From assembly GCF_014058425.1 (NCBI RefSeq), contig NZ_CP049366.1, forward strand, positions 1,178,001-1,242,000: a DNA stretch of 64,000 nt, in the 5' to 3' direction. This stretch comes from Companilactobacillus pabuli (GTDB lineage: Bacteria; Bacillota; Bacilli; Lactobacillales; Lactobacillaceae). The number at the start of each line of letters is the position of its first letter. Position 1 is the first letter of the stretch. Shown piece by piece: positions 25,177 to 42,868 of this stretch. The notes under the pieces were generated by a model. That model searched no databases and was not told the DNA's origin. It worked only from the letters and a program-made list of their open reading frames with translations. A program made the translations under genes and the position numbers.

Positions 25177-25483
25177 TCACTTCATCATCGACAAAGCCAA
25201 ATTCAAAACCTTTTCACCATTCATAGTTCCAAAATCCTTCATATCAATCACAGCAACCGGCACATCAACTTCTTTAATAACTAAATGATACATGTACTGA
25301 ATCTGCGGTCCTAACAAAATAACATCTGGATGATACTTTTTTACATTCGTCAGGAATGATTGATCCAGCGGTCGCAAATATTGATACATCAATGTTTCTT
25401 TTTGCTGCCGCTTTTTCCATTTTCGTCACCAACAACGAAGTAGACATCCCTCCAGCACACGCTAGCATGATTGTTTTTGACAT
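25177..25483 (-). pseudogene. PTS lactose/cellobiose-type EIIB, frameshifted
   Basis: The ~100-aa EIIB of the cellobiose family is split over two frames. The first frame starts at ATG 25483 with MSKTIMLACAGGMSTSLLV, including the phospho-Cys C9, and stays family-like to about IDVSIFAT. The second frame then supplies LDQSFLTNVKKYHPDVILLG and on to NGEKVLNLALSMMK at 25177. A +1 shift (one extra base, or two missing) falls at about 25362-25375. Read as is, the product keeps the Cys loop but loses the second half of the domain. It has a normal promoter-side gap but no EIIC or EIIA next to it. A sequencing error or programmed frameshift are the alternatives. Confidence 0.8.
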
Positions 25484-25522
25484 AAGCTTGCCCCTTTTGT
25501 GTATGCGCTTCCATTATACGAT

Positions 25523-25558
25523 AAAAAAAGACCCAGAAATCAACCGACTTTTGGGTCT
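25523..25558 (-). terminator. Intrinsic terminator of the ABC-F gene
   Basis: Stem 25529-25538 with 25549-25558 (one G-T pair), followed on the minus strand by a run of T (25523-25528). Confidence 0.75.
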
Positions 25559-25568
25559 CACAAACTTA

Positions 25569-40440: not shown

Positions 40441-41121
40441 ATGAACTACAAATATATTTTAATCGACCTTGATGATACTATTCTAGATACAAGGGCCAAT
40501 ACACATAATGCTTTAAAAGAAATGGCTAAATATGTTGATTTTCCATTCAATGATGAACAAATTCAATATTGGTATCAAATGAATGACTATTTGTGGAAAC
40601 AATTGGAAGAAAAGCAGATTAGTCGACAAGAATTGATGGACAGTCGCTTTCCAAATCTATTTAGTCATTTCAACAAAAAAATCGATACTACCAACATAAA
40701 TCAACAATACTTTGATGTACTAAATCAACAGCACGAATTGATGCCCGGCGCTAAAGAGATCCTACAGGAATTAAATAAAACATATCGTCTATTTGCGGCT
40801 TCAAACGGAACCGGCGATAAACAATATTCCCAAACGGCAGGCGCAAAAATTGACCAATACTTTGAAAAGATATTTTTATCAGAAGATATTGGTTTCGATA
40901 AACCTGACAAAAAATTCTTTGAAGCCATTGAAAATGAATTACAGGCAAAACCTGAAGACTTTTTAATGATTGGCGACTCACTTTCCTCAGATATTGCTGG
41001 TGCTAATTATAGTAATATCGATAGTCTTTGGTATAACAAGAATGAGATTAATAATAAGACTGATTTTAAGCCCACTTATGAAGTGACTAAATTAGCAGAT
41101 ATTTGCGCAACTATTAAATAA
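40441..41121 (+). CDS. YjjG-family HAD nucleotidase
   Basis: A 226-aa HAD hydrolase of the YjjG/YfnB type, which removes 5'-phosphate from non-canonical pyrimidine nucleotides in house-cleaning. Motif I is LIDLDDTILDTR (Asp9/Asp11 region), motif II is AASNGT, motif III Lys is in GFDKPDKKFF, motif IV is MIGDSLSSDI. A helical C1 cap sits at ~20-90. Full length, no signal peptide. GGAGG lies 7-8 nt before ATG. Alone, followed by the 367-nt gap with the folded element. Confidence 0.87.
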   Translation: MNYKYILIDLDDTILDTRANTHNALKEMAKYVDFPFNDEQIQYWYQMNDYLWKQLEEKQISRQELMDSRFPNLFSHFNKKIDTTNINQQYFDVLNQQHELMPGAKEILQELNKTYRLFAASNGTGDKQYSQTAGAKIDQYFEKIFLSEDIGFDKPDKKFFEAIENELQAKPEDFLMIGDSLSSDIAGANYSNIDSLWYNKNEINNKTDFKPTYEVTKLADICATIK

Positions 41122-41237
41122 ACTGATTCAATTAATAAAAGAGCGAAAATAGCATCCATTCAAATATAGTCATTTTGACTATTGTTTAAATAGATGCCTA
41201 TTTACTCAGTCATTAAAAATATAAAATTACTATCTAG

Positions 41238-41308
41238 TCCGGAATAGCAAAGGCTCCAAGTCGTACCCACATCGTTCCAGCCAAATTTGCTTTGCTATGG
41301 AGGACGGA
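41238..41308. other. Strongly folded ~71-nt element, candidate non-coding RNA
   Basis: In the 367-nt gap 41122-41488, GC-richer sequence folds into a long hairpin: outer TCCG/CGGA (41238-41241 with 41305-41308), a 9-bp stem ATAGCAAAG/CTTTGCTAT (41244-41252 with 41290-41298) and an inner GGCT/AGCC pair, enclosing a loop of CCCACATCG-like sequence. The palindrome is imperfect with purine bulges, as in structured RNA rather than a protein operator. No coding frame of note runs through it, and no T-run follows, so it is not a simple terminator. The rest of the gap holds an AT-rich hairpin (ATAGTCATTTTGACTAT, ~41165-41181) and the promoter listed next. Strand of transcription unknown. Confidence 0.55.
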
Positions 41309-41376
41309 ATATTACTACTAACCTAACTTAAGAAAGAGCCACAAACCTAAATCTCTCCCTTTTTTCTGAAAATTTA

Positions 41377-41407
41377 TTGTTATCGAACCGGTTCGATAGA
41401 CTAGAAT
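41377..41407 (+). promoter_or_regulatory. Operator/promoter of the organophosphate transporter
   Basis: TATCGAACCGGTTCGATA (41381-41398) is a perfect 18-bp palindrome with the CCGG centre of LacI-type operators. It fills the space between a weak -35 (TTGTTA 41377-41382, or TTATCG) and a -10 TAGAAT at 41402-41407. A second possible -10 TATAAT is at ~41446-41451. The operator is 91 nt before the transporter start and resembles the 14279-14294 site in its AACCGGTT core. Confidence 0.6.
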
Positions 41408-41488
41408 AACCATGATTACAGCGTTTATCCGTTTTCATTGCGTTATAATCGATTTGGTCATAAATAAATTTATTGGGGAGGGATTTTT

Positions 41489-42868
41489 ATGTTACATTAT
41501 TTTGACCTGAAACGTCCTCAAAAATTGGGTTTATCAATTAACGAACAAAAGAGTCGTTGGTTTCGTGAATTCTTAAAGTCATTTTTGGTCGTTTTCTTCG
41601 TTTACTTCTGCATGTATTTGATTCGGAATAATCTTTCTGCAGCACAACCTTTGTTAGTTAAAGATGGGATTTCTACAACTGCACTAGGTTGGATTGGTTA
41701 TGGATTCTCACTAGCTTACGGGATCGGTAAAACTGTTCTAGGCTACGTCGTTGATGGTAAGAATACTAAGAAATTCATGTCGTTCCTTTTGATTCTCGCT
41801 GCTATTATGACGTTAATTATTGGGGTTGCCTTATTAATGAATCAAGCTCCTGTCGGATTGATCTTAGTACTTTGGTCATTGAATGGTATTTTCCAATCTC
41901 CTGGTGGCTCAGCTTCTTTATCCACCATTTCACGTTGGACGACAACTACTACTCGTGGACGCTATATTGGAATTTGGAACATTTCTCACGAATTCGGTGG
42001 TGCTGTTGCTGGTGTTATCGCTCTTTGGGGTGCAAATCATCTCTTTGGCGGTAACGTCGGTGGTATGTTTATTTTTCCCGCCATTATTGGTTTAATCGTC
42101 GGTTTCTGGGGATTATTCTTCGGGGCTGATGACCCACAAGAACTAGGTTGGGACCCTAGTGAAATCATCTTTGGTGAAAATATTTCAAAAGCTGATCAAT
42201 CTGCTTCCAAGATGAGTAAGTGGACTATTTTTAAGACTTTCGTCATGAAGAGTCCTTGGGTCTGGCTATTGTGTATCGCTAACGTCTTCGTTTATGTCGT
42301 TAGAATCGGTATCGTCAACTGGGCTCCCTTGTACACTGTTCAACAGCTTCACTTCACAGTAGCTCAAGGTGCCAATACTTTATTGCTTTTCCAATTAGGT
42401 GGAATTATTGGTAGTGTTGTTTGGGGCTGGTTCTCAGATCTTTTGAAGGGTCGTCGGGCTGTTGTTTCAATCATTTGTTTAGCTCTGACAGCCTTCGTTG
42501 TTTTGGGTTATCGTTACGGGACAACACCTATGATGATCAATACTTCTTTGTTTTTCTTAGGTATGTTGATTTACGGACCACAACTATTGATCGGTGTCTC
42601 TGTTATCAGTTTCGTACCTAAAAATGCTCTAAACGTGTCTGATGGATTGACTGGTACCTTTGCTTACATCTTCGGCGATTTGATGGCACAAGTTGGTTTT
42701 GCGGCCATTGCCGATCCTAAGCAAAATGGTCTCTCAATTCTTGGCATGAACCTTCATGGTTGGAATGATACTTTCATTGTCTTCTACATGGCGGTCGTAT
42801 TGAGTATCATTATTTTAGCTATTATTGCTGTCGGTGAAGAAAAACGGATTCGTCAACAATTAAATTAA
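41489..42868 (+). CDS. MFS organophosphate:phosphate antiporter (UhpT/GlpT family)
   Basis: A 459-aa membrane protein with about 12 helices, of the organophosphate:Pi antiporter family that imports hexose-6-phosphate or glycerol-3-phosphate in exchange for phosphate. Diagnostic stretches are the N-terminal YFCMYLIRNNLSAAQPLL, GYGFSLAYGIGKTVLGYVVD, the SRWTTTTTRGRYIGIWNISHEFGG block and PQLLIGVSVISFVPKNA. Specificity between hexose phosphate and glycerol phosphate is not decidable, though a GDPD-type operon elsewhere in the window makes glycerol-3-phosphate conceivable. GGGGAGGG precedes the start. Single gene with its own operator and terminator. Confidence 0.88.
   Translation: MLHYFDLKRPQKLGLSINEQKSRWFREFLKSFLVVFFVYFCMYLIRNNLSAAQPLLVKDGISTTALGWIGYGFSLAYGIGKTVLGYVVDGKNTKKFMSFLLILAAIMTLIIGVALLMNQAPVGLILVLWSLNGIFQSPGGSASLSTISRWTTTTTRGRYIGIWNISHEFGGAVAGVIALWGANHLFGGNVGGMFIFPAIIGLIVGFWGLFFGADDPQELGWDPSEIIFGENISKADQSASKMSKWTIFKTFVMKSPWVWLLCIANVFVYVVRIGIVNWAPLYTVQQLHFTVAQGANTLLLFQLGGIIGSVVWGWFSDLLKGRRAVVSIICLALTAFVVLGYRYGTTPMMINTSLFFLGMLIYGPQLLIGVSVISFVPKNALNVSDGLTGTFAYIFGDLMAQVGFAAIADPKQNGLSILGMNLHGWNDTFIVFYMAVVLSIIILAIIAVGEEKRIRQQLN

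Follow-up and report, generated by a model that had tools for sequence, protein, structure and literature searches.

A probable decayed MITE-like element in Companilactobacillus pabuli and the covarying folded arms that it shares with other Lactobacillaceae

We analysed a folded stretch at positions 41238-41308 of the window, i.e. the whole 64,000-nt segment of Companilactobacillus pabuli DNA under study, and conclude, with good confidence in the account as a whole, that it belongs to a decayed, gene-less, MITE-like Companilactobacillus element which would be mobilized in trans, insert into terminator loops and keep its folded arms for its own benefit. According to this account, a transposase acting in trans would cut at the terminal repeats, and copies would insert into the loops of intrinsic terminators with duplication of ~7 bp, a choice of target that would place them harmlessly after genes. 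The arms would be retained since their folded sense strand (as RNA or as single-stranded DNA) serves the element, to judge from their conservation. The copy in the window is itself probably inert and without function.

The stretch was initially singled out as richer in GC than its surroundings, which holds true (GC of 0.507, the window as a whole having 0.345). It lies in an intergenic gap of 367 nt (41122-41488), downstream of a gene for a YjjG-type HAD nucleotidase and upstream of a transporter gene; the latter was predicted to handle organophosphates, and its best name is UhpT, hexose-6-phosphate:phosphate antiporter (NF007107, 660 bits for a cut-off of 497). The gap was also taken to be the only one above 300 nt, which is true at a 60-aa ORF cut, but a second one (25181-25568, 388 nt) emerges at a 90-aa cut. 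As to the fold, the three nested stems of the original prediction are all present: TCCG (41238-41241) with CGGA (41305-41308), ATAGCAAAG (41244-41252) with CTTTGCTAT (41290-41298) and GGCT (41252-41255) with AGCC (41279-41282). They cannot, however, all form in full because G41252 is claimed by two of them, and the foot of the minimum-energy fold of 41236-41308 is closed by GTCC/GGAC instead. This 73-nt sequence folds no better than its shuffled versions (z = -0.64; 46 of 200 shuffles equally good), and the same goes for the 111 nt around it (z = -0.46, 62 of 200 shuffles as good; z = -0.69 for the opposite strand). Such a damaged fold speaks against the suggestion that this copy encodes a small RNA. 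No terminator-like site (a stem followed by a T-run) was detected in 41000-41520, so that the stretch is not an intrinsic terminator, and a scan of the window against Rfam, a check proposed at the outset, gave no match at the gathering score.

A sequence search of the C. pabuli genome returned 77 matching pieces. Its core pattern, GTTCCAGCCAA-N13-TGGANGACGG, occurs at 55 genomic places with at most three mismatches, and the terminal repeat pattern at 26 sites with the same tolerance; the corresponding controls (the reversed pattern in the case of the core) gave none. The full element is ~527 bp long and consists of 22-bp terminal inverted repeats, two outward-facing arms of ~160 nt and a central hairpin between them; many copies are deletion derivatives of it. 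It has several hallmarks of a MITE: it is short and devoid of a transposase gene (the longest ORF in the 527-bp reference is of 71 aa), and it is bounded by terminal inverted repeats, both ends being found at 23 sites of the survey given below. A search of the genome with a covariance model of the arm (R1), in which 150 of 1136 candidates were scored, identified 112 arms, which are distributed over 80 places as 30 divergent pairs, 49 single arms and one triple, so that the guess of a dispersed palindromic repeat proved correct. When a mechanical ORF caller was applied to the surroundings of 74 of these 80 elements, 70 proved to be clear of any ORF of at least 90 aa, and among the 65 for which both neighbours were called, 41 lie between codirectional, 20 between convergent and 4 between divergent ORFs. 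Two loci, L029 and L030, each have a copy of the 527-bp element that encloses a different element, one with a single arm and ends like GGTTCTTGCTAAAAATTGGTTAG; the nesting was read from the sequence in L029 and from a similar match pattern in L030.

The window copy (Table 1) retains the central hairpin, the right arm minus 93 nt and the right terminal repeat; its left half is gone. The region of the central hairpin (41140-41205) folds at z = -4.53. Intact arms of the type found on the right are 165 nt long, as compared with 72 nt in the window, where the exact core pattern spans 41274-41307 (0 in 100 shuffles). Since TAGCAAAG is doubled in 22 of the 94 distinct intact arms, always with a spacing of 93 nt, recombination between its two copies would fit the deletion seen in the window arm. 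The same shortened form is present in two other loci (L009 and L012).

Table 1. Parts of the element copy in the window
Feature	Position	Strand	Remark
Inserted segment, whole (element remnant and a few ambiguous flanking bases)	41125..41355	+	~11 bp in C. formosensis instead
Central hairpin of the element	41147..41203		Inside a stretch matching positions 234-348 of the 527-bp reference (75.7%)
Right structured arm, internally deleted, 72 nt	41236..41307	+	Covariance model R1, positions 1-157, E = 2.7e-4
TAGCAAAG, putative deletion scar	41245..41252	+	93-nt deletion between two TAGCAAAG copies
Right terminal inverted repeat, GGCTCTTTCTTAAGTTAGGTTA on minus strand	41319..41340	-	0 mismatches to the pattern

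The structure of the arms was examined on 110 extracted sequences (three more arms were not extendable), of which 94 are distinct and 27 remain below 90% identity. An alignment of 20 diverse Companilactobacillus arms out of these 27 contains 97.9% standard pairs, and 40 of its 57 pairs have changed on both sides, a level attained in 0 of 500 shuffles; structures slid along the alignment reach 46.4% of pairing at most. A second alignment, of 29 arms, draws 17 of them from 12 genomes belonging to six other genera; 53 of its 57 pairs have two-sided changes (as many in 0 of 500 shuffles), it being understood that it was fitted to R1 and thus leans towards the R1 structure. An intact arm folds at z = -9.5 and -9.2 as RNA, depending on the strand, and at z = -10.4 as DNA, and a second, GC-rich one at z = -10.1. 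Besides the pairs, several non-Watson-Crick features are conserved in the second alignment: a T.T mismatch in stem P3 (28 of 29 arms), an A.G mismatch in P4 (26 of 29), a GGA/GGA internal loop (17 of 29) and the positions of a GTTCCA motif (27-28 of 29 each). Watson-Crick pairs fill 1520 of the 1584 pairing cells, G-T pairs 25 and A-C combinations 12. The conserved T.T, A.G and GTTCCA argue that the folded strand is under selection, rather than that a palindrome is merely being corrected.

What the folded strand does for the element may be viewed in several ways. It is quite conceivable, though short of probable, that the arms act as DNA: as folded single strands or cruciforms close to the element ends, they would be recognized by a transposase or a replication enzyme. 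The strict Watson-Crick pairing and the strong DNA fold of the arm given above point in this direction, and so does the constant layout, the arms being divergent in 30 of 30 two-arm elements of the C. pabuli genome and in 7 of 7 pairs less than 600 bp apart in other genomes. On the other hand, in the repeats of other genera the arm has different flanks and terminal repeats do not stand out clearly (four other repeat classes were checked), and the hairpin-recognizing Y1 transposases are absent from the C. pabuli genome.

More tentatively, the arms may encode a structured non-coding RNA or form part of one; this RNA, either free-standing or bound to protein, would travel on mobile elements, and its sense strand would be that of R1. 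The two-sided changes of the second alignment are as expected of an RNA, its conserved mismatches, internal loop and GTTCCA motif make structural sense on the R1 strand, and G-T cells outnumber A-C cells. Yet G-U pairs, at 25 of 1584 cells, are very rare for an RNA compared with their usual frequency, and single arms located between codirectional ORFs have no clear strand preference (14 on the same strand versus 11 on the opposite one, in a list made by hand). A scan of 16 arm-bearing loci against Rfam gave only sub-threshold matches (E = 0.17-0.85) and a PyrR site, which lies outside the arm and is unrelated to it. An RNA role for the intact arms found elsewhere is a doubtful but not negligible prospect. 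A wider reading, which we put forward as a speculation that the evidence leaves somewhat on the unlikely side, makes the arm a folded nucleic acid absent from Rfam 15 (most daringly, a structured RNA acting in trans or within a ribonucleoprotein), carried and kept by mobile elements of varied build across many Lactobacillaceae genera and present in >100 copies here.

It is improbable that conservation of the palindrome is a mere by-product of template-switch correction between the strands of the hairpin: the predominance of Watson-Crick cells would be explained, but such correction should erase the T.T and A.G mismatches, which persist across genera.

The distribution of the arm extends well beyond C. 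pabuli. Using R1 on Lactobacillaceae, arms were found in at least 81 of 301 genomes and at least 14 of 40 sampled genera, these counts being lower bounds since 9 candidates were scored per genome under strict filters. Within the genus, DNA comparison detected the element in 25 of 36 genomes; there was no match in the other 11, which counts against the mobile-element account. Since the arm occurs with different flanks in other genera, it is probably older than the 527-bp element. In one genome (G282, loci L280-L286), one and the same arm and downstream part are found behind two different upstream parts, an arrangement which suggests modular exchange. No match was obtained when an arm of the C. 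pabuli type was compared with plasmids, or one distant arm with phages, and one P3 pattern was not found in viral contigs. Among the titles and abstract openings listed by searches of the open-access literature, nothing was recognized as this family.

Target sites were surveyed in 104 fetched loci (64 from the C. pabuli genome and 40 from relatives), where 24 rows with both ends correspond to 23 sites, L141 appearing twice. Duplications of 7-11 bp, another feature of MITEs, flank the element at 10 of these 23 sites, a count made without shuffle control on AT-rich flanks and with some wobble of the ends; the other 13 have no duplication of 7 bp or more, and the window copy, which has no left end, cannot be assessed in this respect. 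The matching duplicates may extend into the element ends; outside the GG...CC of the ends, 7 bases are repeated in several copies, as judged by eye. When the element and one duplicate were removed, the rejoined flanks folded at z below -2 at 12 of the 23 sites, including 9 of the 10 with a duplication, the exception being L137 (z = -0.2). These nine rejoin as terminator-like hairpins; judged by eye, the duplication extends across the loop in eight of them and over the 3' arm in L139.

At the locus of the window itself, the orthologous gap of C. formosensis lies between the same two neighbour genes, with flanks 91.1% and 91.7% identical, and has no counterpart of the inserted segment; it could instead have been deleted there. 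In C. futsaii (G008) and in a further genome (G005), the two genes are separated by about 3.5 kb of extra sequence, the locus being rearranged there and therefore uninformative on insertion. A perfect 18-bp palindrome, TATCGAACCGGTTCGATA, which looks like an operator, is found upstream of the UhpT-like gene at 41381-41398 and is present in C. formosensis too. The idea that the stretch regulates the transporter gene as a leader or operator has its position upstream of that ORF in its favour but is highly improbable. It was rejected on account of the empty site in C. formosensis, where the downstream promoter-side sequence and the palindrome are kept, and is opposed by the fact that nothing of the kind is seen in the 400 nt preceding the transporter gene in C. 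futsaii and G005.

For the preferred account, that of an element mobilized in trans, candidates for the driver enzyme were sought, and it counts against this account that no transposase with such ends turned up. A search for inverted terminal-repeat pairs spaced by more than 700 bp gave none in 1.0 Mb examined, which represents part of the genomes only. None of the 18 ORFs located in six stretches that separate neighbouring arms belongs to a transposase family: 16 have matches to other families of Pfam and 2 have none. At L320 (1513-5505), a minus-strand block of three genes is located between two arms; it codes for a 790-aa DEAD/Helicase_C_2 helicase and for two proteins of 238 and 306 aa with no Pfam match.

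Two families of insertion sequences were considered and rejected. The C. pabuli genome has no ISLre2 transposase, and no arm was found in 13 ISLre2 loci, several of which are fragments. The apparent link with ISLre2 on plasmids arises because an arm sits inside one ISLre2 type, a single event seen twice: in a plasmid of L. brevis (L248, 2981-3118) and in one of L. plantarum (L249, 2981-3119), the arm lies between the transposase stop codon and the right end of the ISLre2. The resident ISL3 is present in eight chromosomal copies (L049-L056), seven of which are 98.5-99.9% identical to the first; several adjoin terminator-like T-runs, with 8-bp duplications by eye. The element ends start with GGYTCT, as do those of ISL3, but diverge further in, so that GGYTCTTT alone is common, and at one end; with these different ends and duplications read as 8 bp, ISL3 was not retained as the driver.

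Some likeness to other systems is apparent. REP sequences and REPINs, which depend on RAYT (Y1) transposases, are dispersed folded units, often in inverted pairs, with G[GT]A at the foot of the stem. All these traits are found here, but our arms are ~160 nt long and a RAYT/REP origin was discarded, no Y1 transposase (PF01797) being detected in the C. pabuli genome (as compared with matches in 18 of 36 genomes of the genus). Group IIC introns target terminator hairpins, as the element seems to do; unlike them, it has terminal inverted repeats and no ORF >71 aa. Another parallel is QMITE2 of Coxiella, outlined as a bacterial MITE that is short and intergenic, with terminal inverted repeats, duplications of 7-9 bp and strong predicted folds (PMC10969869). 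The Companilactobacillus element resembles this outline in all these respects, whereas no related transposase was found here, and the arms, which covary, are common to several genera with different flanks. BOX, RUP and SPRITE of Streptococcus pneumoniae are summarized as many-copy folded repeats, BOX being modular and expressed in multiple cases, which are reduced in S. mitis and very infrequent in other streptococci (PMC3049150). The arms differ from that summary by their presence in at least 14 of 40 sampled Lactobacillaceae genera.

In conclusion, what was a vague folded gap has become a defined repeat family with a testable rule of insertion into terminator loops. The analysis brings to light a folded unit that is missing from Rfam and displays very strong covariation across a family of food and gut relevance, and such abundant folded repeats can have a bearing on where transcripts end as well as on annotation and assembly.
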